A DNA stretch of 14,324 bases, from positions 1-14,324 of the forward strand of contig RFQD01000014.1 of the NCBI GenBank assembly GCA_009925875.1, in the 5' to 3' direction. The stretch comes from Microbacteriaceae bacterium. Lineage in GTDB: Bacteria; Actinomycetota; Actinomycetes; Actinomycetales; Microbacteriaceae. Both the position numbers and the translations under genes were made by a program. The first letter of the stretch is position 1. Every line of letters begins with the position of its first letter. The notes beneath the pieces are model-generated. The model saw only the letters and a program-made list of their open reading frames with translations, was not told the DNA's origin and ran no database searches. This document shows positions 3,444-13,777 of the stretch, piece after piece.

Positions 3444-4814
3444 CTACTTCAAGATACGAATGAGCTTGCGGTTAACGAACTCCTCGATGCCGAATCGACC
3501 GAGCTCGCGACCGAAGCCCGAGCGCTTGACGCCACCGAAGGGTAACTCCGGGCTGTCGAGTCCGACACCGTTCACGTACACCATGCCGGCTTCGATCTGG
3601 TCGGCTACGCGCATGACCTGCTCTTTGTCGGTCGAGAACAGGTAAGAGCCAAGACCGAACGGTGTGTCATTGGCGAGAGCCACCGCTGCCGCCTCGTCCG
3701 CGACCTTGTAGACGAGGGCGACGGGGCCGAAGAATTCCTCGTGGTGCGCATCCATCTTCGGTGTAATACCTGTGAGCACAACACTCGAGAAGTACGTGCC
3801 TTTGCGGTCACCTCGGTTGACGACAACGGCACCCTGAGCGATTGCGCGCGAGACCTGTTCTTCGAGACCGTCGGCGGCGGACTCTGACGACAGAGGACCA
3901 AGGTAGGTGTCGTCGGCCATTGGGTCGCTCGGCACGGATTCGAGCATGGCTGCGGTGAACTTCGTCAAGAACTCGTCGTAGTGCTTCTCGAGAACGATGA
4001 ACCGCTTACCCGCGTTGCAGGCTTGTCCGTTGTTGTCGTTACGCGCAGCAACGGCGGCTTCGACGGTCGCATCCATGTCATCGGTGCTCAGCAAGATGAA
4101 CGGGTCGGAACCACCAAGTTCGAGCACAACCTTCTTGAGGTTGCGTCCGGCAATCTCGGCAACCGCGGCACCCGCTCGCTCCGAGCCCGTCAACGACACG
4201 CCCTGCACGCGTGGGTCCGCGATGATTGTCTCCGCCTGCTTGCTGTCGATGTACAAGTTTTGGTAGGCACCGACGGGGAAACCGGCGTCTCGAAACATCT
4301 TTTCCATCGCGGCCGACGATTCGGGGCACTGCGACGCATGCTTGAGTAAAATCGTGTTTCCCAGCACCAAGTTCGGTCCGGCAAAGCGGGAGACCTGATA
4401 GTACGGAAAATTCCAGGGCATGATTCCCAAAAGAACGCCGATTGATGACCGGCGGATGAACGCCTCGCCTTCCCCCTCGAACTCGGCAATCTGCTCGTCG
4501 GCGAGGAAGCGCTCACCGTTGGTCGCATAGAACGAGTAAATATCGGCAGTGAAGTCGACCTCGCCCAGTGCTTGACCGAGCGGCTTGCCCATTTCGCGCA
4601 CAATGATTTCGGCCAGTTCTTCGCGACGCTCGCGATGCAATTCGGCAACTTTTTCAATCATTGCGGCCCGCTGCGCCACCGTGGTCGACTTCGACCACGT
4701 GGAATGAGCGGCGTGCGCCTCCTCGATGGCTTTCGCCACGGCCGCATCCGTGGTCTGCGCGAACGGCGCACTCTTTTCACCGGTGGCAGGGTTGGCAACA
4801 ACGTAGGTGCTCAT
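3444..4814 (-). CDS. gabD: NAD(P)-dependent succinate-semialdehyde dehydrogenase (short GabD type)
   Basis: 456-aa cytoplasmic aldehyde dehydrogenase, probably oxidising succinate semialdehyde to succinate, the last step of GABA breakdown. From the chosen ATG, the family residues are Asn135 in MPWNFPYY, Lys158, the general base Glu232 in LELGGSDPF, and catalytic Cys266 in NNGQACNAGKRF. Length and these motifs fit the roughly 455-460-aa GabD1-like group of actinobacteria rather than the longer 480-500-aa enzymes. Start choice: AAGGAG lies 5 nt before ATG 4814, whereas the in-frame GTG at 4820 would overlap that ribosome binding site. It follows the LtrA-like gene by 57 nt on the same strand and ends tail-to-tail with tetR. 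Exact aldehyde substrate is inferred; other semialdehydes are possible. Confidence 0.85.
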   Translation of the reverse strand: MSTYVVANPATGEKSAPFAQTTDAAVAKAIEEAHAAHSTWSKSTTVAQRAAMIEKVAELHRERREELAEIIVREMGKPLGQALGEVDFTADIYSFYATNGERFLADEQIAEFEGEGEAFIRRSSIGVLLGIMPWNFPYYQVSRFAGPNLVLGNTILLKHASQCPESSAAMEKMFRDAGFPVGAYQNLYIDSKQAETIIADPRVQGVSLTGSERAGAAVAEIAGRNLKKVVLELGGSDPFILLSTDDMDATVEAAVAARNDNNGQACNAGKRFIVLEKHYDEFLTKFTAAMLESVPSDPMADDTYLGPLSSESAADGLEEQVSRAIAQGAVVVNRGDRKGTYFSSVVLTGITPKMDAHHEEFFGPVALVYKVADEAAAVALANDTPFGLGSYLFSTDKEQVMRVADQIEAGMVYVNGVGLDSPELPFGGVKRSGFGRELGRFGIEEFVNRKLIRILK

Positions 4815-4826
4815 AGTCACTCCTTC

Positions 4827-7680: not shown

Positions 7681-8892
7681 TTACGCCGTGCGCCCGACCT
7701 TGTTTCGATACGCCATGACTTTGGAGCGCATCCCGATGCCACACACGCCGACCATGTCGTCGCCGTCGAAGTAGCCGTAAATGCAGTCGCCGCCGGGCTC
7801 GCCTTCGAGCAACCGGACTTCGGTTCCTTGGTCGAGTAGGCCATAAGCCAGCAAGCTGACCTCGAACTGGTCACTCCAGAAGCTGGGCACGGGATCGAAT
7901 GCTTTGGCGTGTTCGGCGGCGTGCGCGTCCGCATCGCCACTCAACTGCAGTGCAAGTTGCTTGCCCACCTTGCGCGCCATTTCGGTCGGGATGTTCCAAT
8001 GCTCCACCCGGCGCGTGCTGGGGTCGAACTTAGGGATGGGGAACCGAGCGACATCGCCGACCGCGAAAACGTTGGGCCACGCTTCGCCGTTGGCGCGCAG
8101 AGCGTGAAGGGAGGCGTTGACGTGCACCCCCGACTCGATGTCGATGTCGTTGCCGGCGAGAAATTCGGTGTTCGGCAGTGAACCAAGCGACTCGATCAGA
8201 ACGTCACACGGCAGTGATTCGCCGGTGTCGAGCGTGACGCCGGTGACGCGTTCGTCGCCGAGCACTCCGGTGAGTTGAGCGTTCATGACGAACCGCACAC
8301 CGTGCGCCTCTTGTCGGCGTTGAATGTCGGTCGCCAGCTCGAGCCCGAGCGGGCGAAGCATCGGCACCGGTCCTTTGCCCACGACGGTCACCGAGGCGCC
8401 GAGCTTGGTCGCAGTGGCTGCCGCCTCGCATCCGATGAATCCAGCGCCATAAATGACGACTTTTGCACCCGGCACCAGCTCGTTGCGCAACGCAATCGCG
8501 TCGTCGAGTGTGCGAATCGCGTGGATGCCCTTCGCCGGCTTATTGTCGAAATCGAGTCGGCGCGGACGCAGCCCGGTCGCGATCACGAGCGCCTCGAAAT
8601 CAAGCGTTGTTCCGTCAGCGAGAGTCACCGTCTGTGCCTCGAGATCCGCCGCCACGGCTGCACTGCCCGTCTTCCACTCAACGTCATCGAGGATTTCGGC
8701 GAGCGCAAAAGCGACAGCGTCGTGGCTTACGTCACTCGCCAGAACTTCTTTCGACAGAGGCGGTCGGTTGTACGGCGCGTGCGGTTCATCGCCCACAACA
8801 ACGAGCGGGCCAAGGTATCCCGATTTGCGCAGGGTCTCCGCAACGCGGAGCCCACCCATGGATGCCCCGACGACGACGACCGGACGACTCAT
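7681..8892 (-). CDS. FAD-dependent ferredoxin reductase (P450 electron-transfer component)
   Basis: 403-aa flavoprotein of the CamA/rubredoxin-reductase type that passes electrons from NAD(P)H to a small ferredoxin. FAD-binding Rossmann motif VVVVGASMGG (5-14); substrate-side signature PYNRPPLSK (40-48); ATG box VIATGLRP (103-110); NAD(P)-binding motif VVIYGAGFIG (145-154); FAD closing motif NVFAVGDVA (274-282). Length is normal for the family. At the end of the second Rossmann strand, where NADH-dependent members usually have an acidic residue, the sequence reads VTVVGKG (168-174); this may favour NADPH. ATG 8892 follows the ferredoxin stop by 9 nt and has only a weak ribosome binding site, so translation is probably coupled to the ferredoxin. 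Its likely partner chain is this ferredoxin plus the P450 at 13794. Confidence 0.92.
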   Translation of the reverse strand: MSRPVVVVGASMGGLRVAETLRKSGYLGPLVVVGDEPHAPYNRPPLSKEVLASDVSHDAVAFALAEILDDVEWKTGSAAVAADLEAQTVTLADGTTLDFEALVIATGLRPRRLDFDNKPAKGIHAIRTLDDAIALRNELVPGAKVVIYGAGFIGCEAAATATKLGASVTVVGKGPVPMLRPLGLELATDIQRRQEAHGVRFVMNAQLTGVLGDERVTGVTLDTGESLPCDVLIESLGSLPNTEFLAGNDIDIESGVHVNASLHALRANGEAWPNVFAVGDVARFPIPKFDPSTRRVEHWNIPTEMARKVGKQLALQLSGDADAHAAEHAKAFDPVPSFWSDQFEVSLLAYGLLDQGTEVRLLEGEPGGDCIYGYFDGDDMVGVCGIGMRSKVMAYRNKVGRTA

Positions 8893-8901
8893 GAAATGAC
8901 G

Positions 8902-9093
8902 TTACTCGGTGAACGAAATGGCCTGCATCGGGCAGATGTCGACCGCGCGCTGAACATTTTCACGTTCGCTGTCGTCTGCCGTTGCCTTGTACTCGAGCTT
9001 GTCATCGTCGTTGAGCGCGAACACCTCGGGTGCGTCGAAGACACACTGGCCGTAGTGCTGACACTTGTCCATGTCGACATGAATCTTGAGCAT
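8902..9093 (-). CDS. [3Fe-4S] ferredoxin, P450-associated type
   Basis: 63-aa ferredoxin with Cys11 and Cys17 in CQHYGQC and Cys54 in CPMQAI. Tyr14 occupies the position of the fourth cysteine of 4Fe-4S ferredoxins, so a 3Fe-4S cluster is expected, as in the C-x2-X-x2-C ferredoxins that serve actinobacterial cytochromes P450. The acidic middle (residues 28-45) suits docking to a basic P450 surface. ATG 9093 directly abuts the TAA of the upstream hydrolase gene, with GGAGGAG 6 nt before the start, so it is translated with the operon. It is followed after 9 nt by its presumed reductase. Confidence 0.93.
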   Translation of the reverse strand: MLKIHVDMDKCQHYGQCVFDAPEVFALNDDDKLEYKATADDSERENVQRAVDICPMQAISFTE

Positions 9094-9969
9094 TTATTTC
9101 TCCTCCACAGTTGATGGGTAAAGGTCTTTCGAGGGGGTGCGGATTCCGCGGAATTCCCAGTCTCCGCCCAGAGCGGTCGAAACGACCTCTTCGCTCTCGG
9201 TGGGTTGCGCACCCACATCCGTGCGAATCGGTGTCGGGCCGACCACGATGTGGTTGGTGAGGCGTCCGAGGCCTTCGACCTCAACCTCGACCACGTCACC
9301 GGGTTGCACCGGACGCGAAAACGCCGGCGTGCCCGAGAACAACATGTCGCCCGGAACGAGCGTGATAGTGCGGGCGATATCCGCCACCAGATAGTGCATG
9401 TCCCATTCCATGTTGTCGGTGTTGTCTTCTTGTTTGACTTCACCGTTCACATACGTGCGGATCATTTTGTTGCGAAAGTCCCAGTCGGTGACGAGTCCGG
9501 GGCCGACGGGGGCCAGCGTGTCGGATCCTTTGACGCGCAGCATCGAGCCTGCATCCGTGTCTCTGAAATCGTGCAGACCGAAGTCGTTGCCGACCGTGTA
9601 TCCCGCGATGTAGTCGCCCGCCTCAGCCGGCGAAATGTTGCGGCACGTCTTGCCAATCACGATGACGATTTCGCCCTCGTAGTTGAGCCACTTGCAGCCT
9701 TCGGGACGCACGACGGCACCCTTGTGACTGTTGATTGCGGTAATCGGCTTGTGAAAATACGTCGGCGCCGATGGGAGTTTCGTCATGAACTCCTTGGTGC
9801 GGCTGTCGTAGTTCAGGTGGACGGCGATGATCTTGGTGGGCTCGCTCGGGGGCAGGTGTTGCGCATCCTCGATGGCCACCCGCCGGCCGTCGGCGGCAAC
9901 GAGAAACTCGCCGTCGCGCACGGTCTGCAGCGTGGCGCCGTCCAGCAAAATGCGTCGATACTCAGTCAC
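9094..9969 (-). CDS. hpaG: HpaG-like fumarylacetoacetate-hydrolase-fold isomerase/decarboxylase
   Basis: 291-aa protein of the FAH superfamily. The metal site is visible as Glu98 and Glu100 in YEGEIVIVIGK, with Asp129 in VGNDFGLHDFRD; Lys147 in RVKGSD is the usual active-site lysine. In the homoprotocatechuate pathway, HpaG decarboxylates 5-carboxymethyl-2-oxo-hex-3-ene-1,7-dioate and isomerises the product. The FRDTDAGSM and LRVKGSDTLAPVGPGL stretches resemble that group and meta-cleavage FAH relatives. Start choice: GTG 9969 overlaps the hpaD stop by 8 nt (GTGACTGA); no other in-frame start precedes the domain except in out-of-context sequence inside hpaD. It probably depends on translational coupling. 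The neighbours hpaD and hpaE support the role. Exact substrate is inferred; E. coli HpaG is a two-domain fusion, while this is a single unit. Confidence 0.8.
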   Translation of the reverse strand: MTEYRRILLDGATLQTVRDGEFLVAADGRRVAIEDAQHLPPSEPTKIIAVHLNYDSRTKEFMTKLPSAPTYFHKPITAINSHKGAVVRPEGCKWLNYEGEIVIVIGKTCRNISPAEAGDYIAGYTVGNDFGLHDFRDTDAGSMLRVKGSDTLAPVGPGLVTDWDFRNKMIRTYVNGEVKQEDNTDNMEWDMHYLVADIARTITLVPGDMLFSGTPAFSRPVQPGDVVEVEVEGLGRLTNHIVVGPTPIRTDVGAQPTESEEVVSTALGGDWEFRGIRTPSKDLYPSTVEEK

Positions 9970-10870
9970 GAGAAAGCACCAGATCTTTCGGTCGGGGGAA
10001 GCCGCCCTCCGGCTGGGGGAAGTAGATGTGCACCTGTCCGGTGCCCACCGAGTTTTCGTACTCGGAGTACATGATGCCCTTCGACGTGTTCGCCTCTTCG
10101 CCAATGGCGCCGGCCATCGTCAAATAGTGACTGAAGTTCGCCTCGGGCTTGTACTTCTTGAACTCGGGCATCGTCTCGAGCACGCGGGCGTGGTCGCCGG
10201 CCTTGAACCACTCGATACGCTCCTCGTCGGCCGCGCGAGCTTCGGGAGAGAAGATGTGCTTCGGGTCACTCGCCTCGTGCTTGCGCAGGTCACGCAGTGA
10301 GTAGAACGTGTGCGAGAGTGCACCGGATGCGAGCAGCAACACCTTGCGGTCACTGTCACGAATCGCTTCGCCGAGTGCACGACCCGCACGCAAAAAATCT
10401 TCGGTGGTCGCGGTCTGACAGACCGAGATGCTGACCCATTGCTTGTCGAGGCCCTTACCGAGGTAGTCCCACAGGTTGATCGTTGCGTAGAACACGGGCA
10501 GGTGCGGGTCATCAATGGGCGTGACCCAGGTGCCGTTCTTCTCGGCGTAGGTCGCGACTGATTCCGCCAGAGCGCGGTCACCCTTGAACGAGTATGGAAC
10601 CGCACTCATGCCACGTGGCAATTCTTCGGAGGTGTAGAAACCCTCTCGGTGATCGTGCGAGGTGATGACGAATTCGACCGTTGTCGCCCAGTGCGAGTCG
10701 AGCACGACGACGGTGTCGTAGTCGAGGGTCTCCATGACGTCTGCGCGCAAGCGCTCGAGACCGGGAACGAGCGAGATCTCTTTGCCCTCATTGAGTTCGT
10801 AACGAATCTCCTTGGGAAGCATGATTGTCGGTACGTGCGCCAGAAGTGCAGCGCCTACAACTTCGCCCAT
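9962..10870 (-). CDS. hpaD: Class III (LigB-type) extradiol dioxygenase, HpaD-like
   Basis: 302-aa non-heme iron ring-cleaving dioxygenase. It resembles enterobacterial homoprotocatechuate 2,3-dioxygenase along its length: AHVPTIMLP (His12), VVVLDSHW (His60), DHREGFYTSEELP, LLASGALSH (His187) and VGTGQVHIYFP. His12, His60 and Glu270 are the expected Fe(II) ligands of the class, with His187 in the conserved LASGxLSH block. The reaction would be meta-cleavage of 3,4-dihydroxyphenylacetate or a close catechol to a carboxymethyl-hydroxymuconate semialdehyde. ATG 10870 is preceded by GGAAGGA about 6 nt away, lying in the last codons of hpaE; the hpaE stop is 2 nt upstream. The well-known Brevibacterium enzyme for this reaction belongs to another superfamily, so this is a different solution in an actinobacterium. 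Other para-substituted catechols remain possible. Confidence 0.85.
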   Translation of the reverse strand: MGEVVGAALLAHVPTIMLPKEIRYELNEGKEISLVPGLERLRADVMETLDYDTVVVLDSHWATTVEFVITSHDHREGFYTSEELPRGMSAVPYSFKGDRALAESVATYAEKNGTWVTPIDDPHLPVFYATINLWDYLGKGLDKQWVSISVCQTATTEDFLRAGRALGEAIRDSDRKVLLLASGALSHTFYSLRDLRKHEASDPKHIFSPEARAADEERIEWFKAGDHARVLETMPEFKKYKPEANFSHYLTMAGAIGEEANTSKGIMYSEYENSVGTGQVHIYFPQPEGGFPRPKDLVLSRD

Positions 10871-10872
10871 TG

Positions 10873-12336
10873 TTATTCCTTCCATCCATGTGGTGAAACG
10901 ACGGTGTTCTTGACATCGGCGTAGAAGTCGAACGACCACGTGCCTCCGTCGCGCCCGATGCCCGATTTCTTCGAACCCCCGAACGGCGCGCGCAGGTCGC
11001 GCACGAAGAAGCAGTTGACCCAGATGGTGCCGGCGACCAGCACGTCGGTGATCTTCTTGGCGTGGTCTTTGTCGCCCGAGACGACAACCGCGGCAAGACC
11101 AAATTCGGTTCCGTTGGCGCGCTCGATCACTTCCTCATCGGTGGTAAACGTCATCATGCACAGCACCGGGCCGAAGATCTCACTCGTCACGATTTCCGAA
11201 CCTGGCGTTGGATCCTTCACGAGTGTCGGGCGATAGTAGAGCCCGCCGAGTTCGGCGTTGGGCTCGCCGCCCCAGACAATTTCTTGCCCTTCAACCTTGG
11301 CGCGATCAACGAATCCCTTGACCCGGTCGAAGTGCACCTGGTGAATTTGCGGGCCGATGTCGGTGGCTTCGTCACGCGGGTCACCCTGCGTGAGTCCCTG
11401 GACCTTCTCGGCGAACTTGGCGGCGAACTCGTCGGCGATGGACTCGTGCACGAAGATGCGCGTTCCGGACAAACACACCTGCCCCGCGTTGTCGTATTGC
11501 TCAACGGCGATTTCGGCGGCGAGGTCGAGGTCGGCATCCGCCAGCACAATCATCGGGCTCTTGCCACCGAGCTCGAACGAGCACGGCGTGAGGTTGTCGG
11601 CCGCGGCCCGCGCAATGACCTTGGCCGTGGGGACTGAACCAGTGAACGAGATGCGATTAATGTGCGGATGCGCCACCAGCGCAGCCCCCGCTTCGACTCC
11701 GTAGCCCTGCACGACGTTGAAGACGCCATCGGGAATACCCGCCTGCTTCGTGAGATCCGCGAAGAAGGATGCGCTCAGCGGAGTCCACTCGGCGGGCTTG
11801 AGCACGACCGTGTCACCCGCGGCGAGCGCCGGGCCGATCTTCCACGTGGCGAGCATGAGTGTCGCATTCCAGGGCGTGATGAGTGCGGCGACTCCCGAAG
11901 GATCCCAGCTCACGTTGTTGGTGTGTCCGCGCGTTTCGAACGGCTCGTGATGCAGTTCGTTGATGGCCCAATCCGCAAAGAAGCGGATGTTCATCGCCAC
12001 GCGCGGCATCACCCCGCGCCGGTGGGAGCGCAACAGCGACCCGTTGTCCATCGTTTCGAGCTGTGAAAGCGCTTCGTTGTTCGCCTCGATAAGGTCGGCA
12101 AGTTTGTGCAAGAGCGCGCCGCGACCGGCAGCACCGAGAGCGGCCCACGCGGGAAAGGCGTGGCGAGCGGCAGACACGGCCGCGTCAACTTCTTCCGCGC
12201 CACCTCGAGAGATCTCGCCGAGAAAACTTCCGTCAATCGGCGACGTGTTCGTGTAGGTCGTGGCCGAGGCGACACGCTGACCACCGATGTAGTGGCGGGT
12301 GTCAATCTCGACACCGGCGATGCTCACTGTGGTCAT
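10873..12336 (-). CDS. hpaE: HpaE-like semialdehyde dehydrogenase (5-carboxymethyl-2-hydroxymuconate semialdehyde type)
   Basis: 487-aa aldehyde dehydrogenase, the expected length for HpaE. Catalytic set: Asn157 in ITPWNATLM, Lys180, Glu255 in FELGGKSP and nucleophile Cys288 in AGQVCLSGTR. The C-terminal FVRDLRAPFGGSKKSGIG (444-461), followed by GRDGGTWSFDFYADVKN, matches the FVRDL...GGEYSF...KN block typical of HpaE/meta-cleavage semialdehyde dehydrogenases. It would oxidise the ring-cleavage semialdehyde made by the adjacent dioxygenase. ATG 12336 has GAGGAG 8 nt upstream. It is the first gene of a five-gene cluster with hpaD, hpaG, ferredoxin and reductase. A palindromic operator (12368-12391) lies 31 nt upstream, so control by the nearby MarR protein is likely. 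Confidence 0.82.
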   Translation of the reverse strand: MTTVSIAGVEIDTRHYIGGQRVASATTYTNTSPIDGSFLGEISRGGAEEVDAAVSAARHAFPAWAALGAAGRGALLHKLADLIEANNEALSQLETMDNGSLLRSHRRGVMPRVAMNIRFFADWAINELHHEPFETRGHTNNVSWDPSGVAALITPWNATLMLATWKIGPALAAGDTVVLKPAEWTPLSASFFADLTKQAGIPDGVFNVVQGYGVEAGAALVAHPHINRISFTGSVPTAKVIARAAADNLTPCSFELGGKSPMIVLADADLDLAAEIAVEQYDNAGQVCLSGTRIFVHESIADEFAAKFAEKVQGLTQGDPRDEATDIGPQIHQVHFDRVKGFVDRAKVEGQEIVWGGEPNAELGGLYYRPTLVKDPTPGSEIVTSEIFGPVLCMMTFTTDEEVIERANGTEFGLAAVVVSGDKDHAKKITDVLVAGTIWVNCFFVRDLRAPFGGSKKSGIGRDGGTWSFDFYADVKNTVVSPHGWKE

Positions 12337-12345
12337 CAGGGTTGC

Positions 12346-12360
12346 TCCTCACAACGTCGT
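12346..12360 (-). promoter_or_regulatory. Leader element shared with marR (hpaE copy)
   Basis: On the plus strand TCCTCACAACGTCGT. It matches 14 of 15 nt of the element before marR (13683-13697). It comprises the hpaE ribosome binding site (GAGGA on the minus strand) and a 10-nt near-palindrome, ACAACGTCGT, with one mismatched pair. Such conservation between two unrelated leaders beyond the Shine-Dalgarno core suggests a common control element or common ancestry of the leaders. Confidence 0.45.
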
Positions 12361-12367
12361 GCTGAAG

Positions 12368-12391
12368 TAATCATTCGTATACTAATGATTA
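12368..12391. promoter_or_regulatory. Palindromic MarR-type operator, hpaE/hydrolase intergenic region
   Basis: 24-nt palindrome with one mismatched pair: arms TAATCATT (12368-12375) and AATGATTA (12384-12391) around CGTATACT, whose inner GTATAC is itself palindromic on the same centre. Size and symmetry fit a MarR dimer site. It shares TTCGTAT-N-C and the flanking AT and AA positions with the site before the P450 (13754-13777). It sits about 15 nt downstream of a TTGACT hexamer (12407-12412, minus strand), so a bound repressor would cover the hpaE -10 region. Confidence 0.7.
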
Positions 12392-12406
12392 TTGGTACGA
12401 TGTGGA

Positions 12407-12412
12407 AGTCAA
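12407..12412 (-). promoter_or_regulatory. Candidate -35 box of the hpaE operon
   Basis: Minus-strand TTGACT. The -10 partner would fall inside the palindrome at 12368-12391, whose AT-rich arms offer several poor hexamers, so the exact -10 cannot be chosen. Location relative to the operator fits repression by blocking RNA polymerase. Confidence 0.3.
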
Positions 12413-12445
12413 GCCAGTCTGCGCGCAAGTTTGAAAGGCACCGAC

Positions 12446-13144
12446 ATGACTCGCCCCCGCATTGCCCTCCTCGGCCGCTTTGCCGAGAGCACGTCCGCCA
12501 CGAGATACGCCGCCGTGGTCACGACCCGCCGGCTGGCCGAGGCAGTCTGGGCTGCCGGTGGCGAACCGCTCACCATGATTGCGGCAGCCGGACCGGCCGG
12601 CACCGATTGGGCCGAGCGCCTGCGCGGCATCGATGGTGTGCTTATGCCCGGCGGGGCAGACATCAACCCCAAGACCTATGGCCAGACCATCTCGAGCGAA
12701 CACGTTTACGACGTGGATGACCTCGCCGATGAGGCCGACATGTCGCTGGTTCGGTATGCGCTGAGTGCGGGCATCCCGGTGCTGGCAATCTGTCGCGGGC
12801 TGCAGATCACCAACGTGGCCCTCGGTGGCTCGCTGATTCAGCACATGGATGCGCCACACCAGCACCACCTTGCCCCCGTCACCCTCACCGCCTGCGTCGA
12901 CGAGCTCGGTCTCTCCTCGGCGACGGTCGAGGCCTCGTGTTATCACCACCAGATGATCGACACGCTCGCACCTGGTCTCGAGGTCATTGGGCGCTCGGCC
13001 GAGGGGTACGTCGAGGCGGTCAAGATTGACGCACCGGCGTGGGCGTTCGGCGTGCAGTGGCACCCTGAAGACAACTTCGACACCAACCGCCCGCAGGCAG
13101 AGTTGTTCGAACGTTTCGTTGCCGAGGCGGCAAGAGTTCGCTAG
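12446..13144 (+). CDS. Class I glutamine amidotransferase-like gamma-glutamyl hydrolase (PuuD/peptidase C26 type)
   Basis: 232-aa cytoplasmic hydrolase. Nucleophile Cys116 lies in LAICRGLQ; the His206/Glu208 pair lies in VQWHPED; the oxyanion-side signature MPGGADINP is at about 67-75. These are the marks of stand-alone gamma-glutamyl-GABA hydrolases (PuuD), which split a gamma-glutamyl amide into glutamate and a free amine or amino acid. No synthetase domain is attached, so it is not a biosynthetic amidotransferase subunit in itself. Start choice: ATG 12446 has AAAGG 8 nt upstream; an in-frame TTG at 12392 would begin next to the operator and adds non-family residues. It is divergent from hpaE across the shared operator, so it is probably co-regulated with the aromatic genes. 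The conjugated amine is unknown; gamma-glutamyl-GABA or an aromatic amine conjugate are both possible. Confidence 0.88.
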   Translation: MTRPRIALLGRFAESTSATRYAAVVTTRRLAEAVWAAGGEPLTMIAAAGPAGTDWAERLRGIDGVLMPGGADINPKTYGQTISSEHVYDVDDLADEADMSLVRYALSAGIPVLAICRGLQITNVALGGSLIQHMDAPHQHHLAPVTLTACVDELGLSSATVEASCYHHQMIDTLAPGLEVIGRSAEGYVEAVKIDAPAWAFGVQWHPEDNFDTNRPQAELFERFVAEAARVR

Positions 13145-13159
13145 GTCGGCTCTACCGAC
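13145..13159. terminator. Possible weak hairpin between convergent genes
   Basis: GTCGG (13145-13149), 5-nt loop, CCGAC (13155-13159), directly after the hydrolase stop and 20 nt from the marR stop. The position between convergent genes fits a terminator, but the stem is only 5 bp and no T-tract follows on either strand. Confidence 0.25.
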
Positions 13160-13179
13160 GAGAAACGCACGCCGTCCCG

Positions 13180-13674
13180 CTAGCCCTCGATGTTGGCCGT
13201 GATGGCGCGCAGCATGTCGGCCAACTCGCCACGTTTTTCGTCGGCAACGGGCGAGACGACTTCAATCTCTTGACGGTTGAACGCCGGAAACAGTGTTTCC
13301 ATCAGGGCCTTGCCTTGTGTGGTGAGCTTCACGAGCACGAGTCGACCGTCGTTTGCGCTGCGTTCGCGGCGAACCAGTTCCAGCTTCTCGAGTGTGCTCA
13401 GAACGCCGGTGAGCGTCGCCTTCGAGATTCCCGCCTCGGCTGCGATGTCCCGCGTTTCGGCCGGTTCCCAGATCCAGGTCACCCACAGCACGACAAATGC
13501 CGTCCAACTCAGGCCGCTCTCGGCGAGCACATTCCGTTCAAAGTGATTGCGCACGGCGCTGGCCGCGCGAAACAGGTTTGACATCACGGCCATCGCCTCA
13601 AAGTCGAGGGTCATGTGACTCAACCGATTGGCGACGCGCGCTTCGGTTTCGCCCAGAGTGTGACTGCCCGTCAT
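13180..13674 (-). CDS. MarR-family transcriptional regulator
   Basis: 164-aa winged-helix repressor. Recognition region ETRDIAAEAGISKATLTGVL (73-92) and wing SANDGRLVLVKLT (106-118) with the conserved Asp-x-Arg turn are typical of MarR. N- and C-terminal helices for dimerisation flank the domain. Start choice: ATG 13674 has GAGGA 8 nt upstream; the open frame extends to 13770, but that extension would cover the P450 promoter and operator. The gene is divergent from the P450, and the same palindrome lies before the P450 and before hpaE. It is therefore the obvious repressor of both, relieved by an aromatic ligand, like HpaR in enterobacterial homoprotocatechuate clusters (which is also MarR). 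Ligand and direct binding are inferred. Confidence 0.92.
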   Translation of the reverse strand: MTGSHTLGETEARVANRLSHMTLDFEAMAVMSNLFRAASAVRNHFERNVLAESGLSWTAFVVLWVTWIWEPAETRDIAAEAGISKATLTGVLSTLEKLELVRRERSANDGRLVLVKLTTQGKALMETLFPAFNRQEIEVVSPVADEKRGELADMLRAITANIEG

Positions 13675-13682
13675 TTCACCAT

Positions 13683-13697
13683 TCCTCACAACGTTGT
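13683..13697 (-). promoter_or_regulatory. Leader element shared with hpaE (marR copy)
   Basis: Plus-strand TCCTCACAACGTTGT. It contains the perfect 10-nt palindrome ACAACGTTGT (13688-13697) and, on the minus strand, the marR ribosome binding site. It matches 14 of 15 nt of the hpaE leader copy at 12346-12360. Confidence 0.45.
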
Positions 13698-13718
13698 TCC
13701 TCCATTGTGGTGGAGTAC

Positions 13719-13749
13719 TTGACGAAGGATAAGTCAATCGGGATATATT
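13719..13749 (+). promoter_or_regulatory. Candidate P450 promoter
   Basis: TTGACG (13719-13724) as -35 and TATATT (13744-13749) as -10, spacer 19 nt, slightly long. The -35 is one arm of an inverted repeat TTGAC (13719-13723) and GTCAA (13733-13737). The other arm reads TTGACT on the minus strand and could be the -35 of divergent marR, though no good marR -10 is visible. The MarR-type operator begins 5 nt after the -10 box. Confidence 0.4.
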
Positions 13750-13753
13750 GGAA

Positions 13754-13777
13754 ATATTGTTCGTATCCAAACAATCT
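13754..13777. promoter_or_regulatory. Palindromic MarR-type operator, marR/P450 intergenic region
   Basis: Dyad with inner arms ATTGTT (13756-13761 region, exactly 13756-13761) and AACAAT (13770-13775) around an 8-nt CGTATCCA centre; nine of twelve position pairs over the 24 nt are complementary. Aligned on its centre with 12368-12391 it shares AT, TTCGTAT, C, AA and AT at identical positions. It overlaps the expected P450 transcription start, so repressor binding here would block P450 expression and possibly marR itself. Confidence 0.68.

Follow-up and report, generated by a model that had tools for sequence, protein, structure and literature searches.

In the available portion of a published account, local MarR repressors of catabolic clusters have palindromic operators in divergent promoters, and the regulator gene lies beside its targets (PMC5487221). 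The 14,324-nucleotide stretch of DNA that we analyzed (hereafter the window), which corresponds to G000:C36:1-14324 of a 1.75-Mb draft genome in 423 contigs, resembles these systems in its divergent-promoter palindromes, its adjacent regulator gene, and its likely autoregulation. It is unlike the repressors of that account in that relatives such as L034 have some five operators spread along an extended cluster. Judging from the sequence comparisons presented here, we consider it very probable that the palindromes are operators of a MarR-family repressor that is encoded between them and that would jointly switch the whole catabolic cluster. This is an ordinary type of control, a local MarR regulon, which is well supported here and which outlines what seems to be an uncharacterized pathway. 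Among the literature matches listed, in which subscription journals are thinly covered, there was no paper on this cluster or its operator and no counterpart of the half-site or of its ligand; the operator of AesR, a MarR protein of Corynebacterium glutamicum, differs from the present one in the available part of its description (PMC13413800).

Like HpaR, the repressor of the hpa meta operon as presented in excerpts of its source (PMC7180172), the regulator encoded here has a MarR fold and adjoins hpaE/D/G-like genes, and the HpaR model (TIGR02337) is its best NCBIfam match. However, it scores 59 bits against that model, below the cut-off of 121.2, and the present cluster includes a P450 and gamma-glutamylation genes; this comparison is one of proteins rather than of operators. 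With the 4-hydroxyphenylacetate (hpa) pathway the cluster shares steps resembling the 3,4-dihydroxyphenylacetate dioxygenase, the CHMS dehydrogenase, and the decarboxylase/isomerase. That pathway, in the sections of the source available, starts from a two-component hydroxylase and also uses an isomerase, a hydratase, and an aldolase (PMC12718150), none of which we saw among the ORFs scanned.

The aniline/1-naphthylamine gamma-glutamylation systems, as excerpted, combine a glutamine synthetase (GS)-like ligase, a glutamine amidotransferase (GATase), and an oxygenase, followed by catechol-type cleavage (PMC11335346), and the same combination recurs here, although those systems use a Rieske dioxygenase where the present cluster has a P450. 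We met the GS-like ligase and GATase genes beside the oxygenase gene in relatives and not on the contig of the window, and the ORFs scanned, 10 from L034 and L061 and 11 in the window, included no Rieske dioxygenase. The PipA/MorA piperidine/morpholine systems, in the accessible part of their account, have a bacterial P450 served by electron-transfer partners of its own, as the present cluster does, and a glutamine synthetase gene is numbered next to each of two PipA/MorA-type P450 genes in Gulosibacter (PMC9477822). Unlike the present cluster, these systems have no ring-cleavage set in that part of the account, and the P450s are likened here by description.

Read from left to right, the right half of the window contains a leftward reductase-ferredoxin-HpaG-HpaD-HpaE run, a rightward PuuD-like gene, the leftward marR, and the rightward P450 gene. 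The leftward run (all on the − strand) encodes a ferredoxin reductase (7681..8892; PF07992, 183.6 bits; PF14759, 25.6 bits with a cut-off of 25), a single-cluster ferredoxin of 63 aa (8902..9093; Fer4_15 and Fer4_13), an hpaG-like FAA-hydrolase-family protein (9094..9969; PF01557; TIGR02303, the HpaG C-terminal domain, 204.3 bits with a cut-off of 276.4), an hpaD-like LigB-family extradiol dioxygenase (9962..10870; PF02900, 83.9 bits; TIGR02298, 135.3 bits with a cut-off of 315.95), and an hpaE-like aldehyde dehydrogenase (10873..12336; PF00171; TIGR02299, 513.9 bits with a cut-off of 638.35). The hpa names given to these genes in an earlier note on this DNA hold at the level of the family but do not extend to homoprotocatechuate meta pathway equivalogs, since HpaE, HpaD, and HpaG fail the cut-offs. 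Strict hpaE/D/G and hpaR naming was rejected, all four proteins falling below the equivalog cut-offs.

What the same note called a hydrolase is indeed one (12446..13144, + strand), more exactly a PuuD-like peptidase C26 (PF07722, 143.2 bits) and by family a gamma-glutamyl hydrolase. Its PDB matches include PuuD (6vtv, 73.7 bits), the best being 3fij (112.7 bits), and many loci of relatives have no such gene between marR and hpaE. The marR gene (13180..13674, − strand) encodes a winged-helix regulator of 164 aa (PF01047, 49.2 bits with a cut-off of 24.6), whose membership in the MarR family is supported by this domain, which scores above the Pfam cut-off, and by the conserved palindromes in its own and neighboring promoters. 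The cytochrome P450 gene (13794..14324, + strand) is truncated by the contig end; NCBIfam P450 models match it below their cut-offs, and the 177-aa fragment had no Pfam match. Its full-length ortholog in L034 matches PF00067 at 99.3 bits, and the best PDB match of the P450 is 'CYP125MRCA' (341 bits), followed by CYP268, CYP126, CYP125, and CYP124 (225 bits and less). A P450, a small ferredoxin, and a ferredoxin reductase stand together in one cluster, as in a class I bacterial P450 system.

Operator 1 (12368..12391; TAATCATTCGTATACTAATGATTA) lies between hpaE (−) and the PuuD-like hydrolase gene (+), and 11 of its 12 pairs are complementary, while operator 2 (13754..13777; ATATTGTTCGTATCCAAACAATCT) lies between marR (−) and the P450 gene (+) with 9 of 12; neither is assigned to a strand. 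Direct reading confirmed both dyads of the earlier note, with their coordinates, their pairing, and their shared dyad center, on which the two operators agree at 14 of 24 positions. Short palindromes of this kind could be chance resemblances in AT-rich promoter DNA, and operator 2 taken alone is an unremarkable dyad that speaks for this explanation (P = 0.047 in Markov-1 simulations, in which 10.1 24-mers with 9 pairs were expected in the window and 9 were observed). The same simulations gave an expectation of 0.05 for 24-mers with at least 11 pairs, against one observed in the window; none of 2000 simulations equalled the best dyad of the hpaE/puuD region, and the 14/24 agreement between the dyads of both regions had P = 0.001. 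The case against chance from the window by itself is moderate. The TTCGTAT heptamer occurs three times in the window (third copy at 3454-3460) versus 0.71 expected, and both copies of TTCGTATNCNAA in the window's own genome are at operators 1 and 2. Scored with a matrix from relatives, which includes both window 24-mers because relative L033 has identical letters, the two operators reach 31.7 and 31.5, the runner-up place in the window 2.4, and the top place over 300 simulated windows 17.2.

We used the MarR as a query against a collection of 84,980 species genomes and obtained 73 loci, 71 of which (L033-L103) hold marR orthologs with 60-91% identity; no cluster gene was seen in the other two (L104 and L105). 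All but one of the 71 records (the exception being L099, an 'uncultured bacterium') bear actinobacterial names, and the cluster is present in Aurantimicrobium minutum MWH-Tana7 and Salinibacterium amurskyense DSM 16400. From these loci we cut 65 P450-marR and 65 hpaE upstream regions, the loci outside each set lacking one gene, reaching a contig end, or having a different arrangement. The core TTnGnnnnCnAA was found in every region of both sets (65/65 and 65/65), compared to means of 2.2 and 1.9 among shuffled regions, and the stricter TTnGnATnCnAA was found in 45 P450-marR and 55 hpaE regions (shuffled mean, 0.16). These sites comprise 45 distinct 24-mers at P450-marR and 46 at hpaE. The median distance from the core to the start codon is about 31 nt for P450 (34 including the codon) and about 36 nt for hpaE (39 including the codon).

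To compare the sites with their surroundings, we took pairs of loci with MarRs at most 70% identical and considered the 12 free positions of the 18-bp site, the six positions fixed by the selection pattern being taken out of the identity figures. The free positions were 64% identical at P450 (1358 pairs) and 72% identical at hpaE (1351 pairs), whereas the 18 nt on either side of the site were 24-32% identical in the same diverged pairs. Four loci (L081, L087, L094, and L095) were excluded from these figures, because the most symmetrical core picked in their P450-marR region is probably not the operator, and were retained in all other counts; including them gives 61% at P450 and 71% at hpaE. 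When all site positions are counted, with the six fixed by selection among them, identity is 76% and 81%. There is a clear phylogenetic footprint at both promoters, and conservation at orthologous loci bears out what had been proposed from the two window sites. Given this conservation, the divergence of the flanks, and the matrix scores, chance resemblance is vanishingly improbable, and we rejected it on the simulations, the matrix scores, and the diverged-pair footprint.

The site that recurs in relatives is wider and looser than TTCGTATACGAA, which the earlier note had put forward as the ideal site and which we rejected in its strict form as too narrow. The P450/marR sites have the consensus AnaTtgTTcGnatCCnAACAAtct and the hpaE sites aanTCaTTCGGATnCtAAtGAnTt, and the two site classes differ from each other. 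A matrix built from hpaE sites only placed 12 of 65 P450 sites above the 99th percentile of decoys, and the converse matrix placed 53 of 65, decoy percentiles that are doubtful since the decoys probably included true operators.

In the window's own genome, the strict pattern TYRTTNGNATNCNAAYRA is found at two places only, operators 1 and 2, and is therefore not abundant in unrelated promoters. A close marR ortholog is present in 35 of the 299 genomes of the family (E below 1e-50; next match, 3e-19), and we searched these 35, together with 30 genomes of our choosing that have no close marR ortholog, with TYRTTNGNATNCNAAYRA. The strict motif occurred in 34 of 35 genomes with marR versus 1 of 30 without it (G119), and the reversed pattern, as a control, matched in 1 of the 65. 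Judging by matching coordinates, the sole marR genome without a strict site, G271, appears to have yielded L056, a locus with slightly degenerate sites. By manual count, 63 of the 67 strict sites in 35 genomes lie at most 10 kb from marR on the same contig. Two more are on a second G112 contig with the same cluster; one of these falls where that contig overlaps the marR contig, so that there are 66 distinct places. Another, in G180, sits between the APC permease and ADC-family genes some 56 kb from the cluster, a relocated pair that retains its operator site. One site, at G128:C3:160257-160274 (L107), is outside the cluster and upstream of a gene that by eye is cydA-like; we have no explanation for it, and it could be either chance or a real extra target.

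The strict pattern was formulated after the sites had been seen, and consequently only its near absence elsewhere, and not its occurrence in the cluster, counts as independent evidence; presence of the motif and presence of the MarR are confounded because both belong to one gene cluster. The MarR was the only regulator followed across loci, and its occurrence in all 71 is no test of how the sites are read, as the loci were fetched with it. It is conceivable that the site is read by a different regulator from elsewhere in the genome, either a global or a nitrogen/carbon regulator, and that the MarR is incidental, which would accommodate the off-cluster strict site in G128 and the one in G119, a genome without this marR, given that the link between the MarR and the site is purely computational. 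However, a global regulator should have many sites, and the motif is nearly absent away from the cluster, and 29 of the 30 genomes without marR lack it; we consider this alternative very unlikely.

The earlier note had drawn a compact regulon of the P450, marR, hydrolase, hpaE/D/G, and ferredoxin-reductase genes, which the sites support but which is incomplete, as there are further operators in relatives; its list was too short because the contig stops partway through the P450 gene. We scanned the loci with a matrix from both site classes and a threshold of 13, which was our choice and which most training sites exceed well (5th percentile, 19.2). Sites recurred farther along from the P450 start, at about 2.1 kb and at 4.4-4.6 kb in L034; they fall in two divergent promoters, one between the genes for the GS-like ligase and a class-I GATase and the other between those for the APC permease and the ADC-family enzyme. 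Neither region had a part in matrix training, and yet an above-threshold site was present in 54 of 59 GS/GATase promoters (shuffled mean, 0.04) and 47 of 48 APC/ADC promoters (shuffled mean, 0.09); the relaxed core by itself was present in 43/59 and 46/48. Of 97 control promoters from these loci that we regarded as lying outside the cluster, 12 had the relaxed core and 8 exceeded the threshold. Two of these eight (L052 and L053) are by position the hpaE operator, misassigned in ORF calling. The other six border on the cluster: two precede a PuuC-like aldehyde dehydrogenase gene (L035 and L068), and four adjoin the permease gene (L043, L044, L083, and L050). At L043:3917-3940, L044:2451-2474, and L083:3390-3413 the operator-like site stands before a gene that by eye is aspartase-like, a possible member of the regulon.

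This continuation of the cluster, with genes for the APC permease, the ADC-family (MppR-like) enzyme, the GS-like ligase, and the GATase, occupies L034:3769-8547 and has equivalents in many of L033-L103. Searches of the window's own genome yielded matches of at most 39% identity for the GS-like protein, with no ortholog found, and no match for the ADC-family enzyme. We infer that these genes are missing from the assembly, since the P450 gene is cut by the contig end and the same-genus L033 and G112 have GS and GATase genes beside the P450 gene. The operator links genes whose order is ambiguous, and it exposes members that lie beyond the contig end or, in the case of G180, some 56 kb distant.

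The positions of the sites relative to presumed promoters suggest how they may work. A presumed P450 promoter (13719..13749, + strand) consists of TTGACG at 13719-13724 and TATATT at 13744-13749 with a 19-bp spacer, from which the P450 start point would fall in operator 2. For marR, the presumed promoter (13742..13770, − strand) consists of TTGGAT at 13765-13770 and TATATC at 13742-13747 with a 17-bp spacer, and since this −35 hexamer is inside operator 2, autoregulation is likely. The earlier placement of the sites over or just past the −10 regions is plausible, judged by hexamers that resemble the consensus and were chosen by eye. With the presumed start point and the marR −35 box both in operator 2, the likeliest mode would be blocking of RNA polymerase combined with autoregulation. 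Twelve bases, TCCTCACAACGT, are shared by 12346-12357 and 13683-13694, about 9 nt before the start codons of the leftward hpaE and marR genes; they contain the ribosome-binding GAGGA, and the shared ACGTTGT beyond it, seen by eye, has no explanation.

Some MarR proteins activate, and at least two cores occur in 18 of the 65 P450-marR regions of relatives, both of which would suit an activator or dual regulator better than a plain repressor. The P450 site is at or after the presumed start point, which would be a repressor position, and we consider activation or dual control unlikely. If the MarR is a repressor, a MarR dimer without ligand would occupy each site, covering the start region at the P450 promoter, the −35 box at the marR promoter (autoregulation), and both divergent promoters at hpaE/puuD. 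A substrate or intermediate of the pathway would then free the MarR from the DNA, and its release would turn on the entire catabolic cluster together. Binding, repression, and autoregulation by this MarR are what we infer from the sites, and release by a pathway compound is what would be expected from the MarR family in the available text on local repressors (PMC5487221). The earlier proposal from two sites was right and can now be put more strongly, with binding by the MarR as a prediction.

Variation within the regulator itself offers a further view of this predicted contact. The segment SKATLTGVL, which we take to be the recognition helix by its place in the MarR fold, is nearly invariant across loci, and 7 of 72 MarRs have Ser in place of Thr at residue 89 (T89S). 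The hpaE sites of S89 loci have AC or CC at their center in 5 of 5 cases, versus AT in 55, GT in 4, and AC in 1 of the 60 T89 loci. Similarly, an AT center was found in 0 of 4 P450 sites of S89 loci versus 40 of 61 of T89 loci. This covariation fits direct contact between the residue and the operator center, but the S89 loci are probably one clade.

Together, the cluster in relatives encodes an APC permease, an ADC-family enzyme, a GS-like ligase, a GATase, a P450 with its ferredoxin and reductase, and HpaE/D/G-like enzymes, with the PuuD-like hydrolase forming part of it in only some of them. Its products include two glutamine-amidotransferase-fold hydrolases, and the ADC enzyme is MppR-like. 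The GS-like protein matches NpaA1 (8wwu) at 177 bits, versus 216 bits for the best of the ordinary glutamine synthetases. A PLP decarboxylase gene adjoins the P450 gene in 15 of 71 loci; in L061 it stands next to the P450 gene together with a cupin-like gene (L061:6813-8582), and its product resembles diaminobutyrate and DOPA decarboxylases to about the same degree and therefore does not point to one substrate. The best reading of these genes is that the MarR-controlled pathway would join a P450 system, gamma-glutamylation, and ring cleavage. Our guess at its substrate is an aromatic amine that might be gamma-glutamylated, oxidized by the P450, deglutamylated, and ring-cleaved, because a ligase, a GATase, and an oxygenase with catechol-type cleavage follow the logic of the aniline/1-naphthylamine systems as excerpted (PMC11335346).

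We tentatively suggest, as a possibility worth serious weight, that this is an undescribed amine pathway widespread in Microbacteriaceae and their kin. It would consist of amine import, GS-like gamma-glutamylation, oxidation by a P450 rather than a Rieske dioxygenase, deglutamylation, and ring cleavage, all controlled by a single MarR repressor through four to six operators, and the PLP decarboxylase of 15 of the 71 loci would supply the amine by decarboxylating an amino acid. The defined set of genes (P450, GS-like ligase, two glutamine-amidotransferase-fold hydrolases, permease, ADC-family enzyme, and ring-cleavage enzymes) can direct the search for the substrate, and the MarR with its operator is a possible biosensor for finding it. 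Farther left in the window, where the matrix places no operator nearby, lies an aldehyde dehydrogenase gene (3444-4820, − strand; PF00171), by eye of the succinate-semialdehyde type, whose enzyme could take up the product of an hpa-like pathway.
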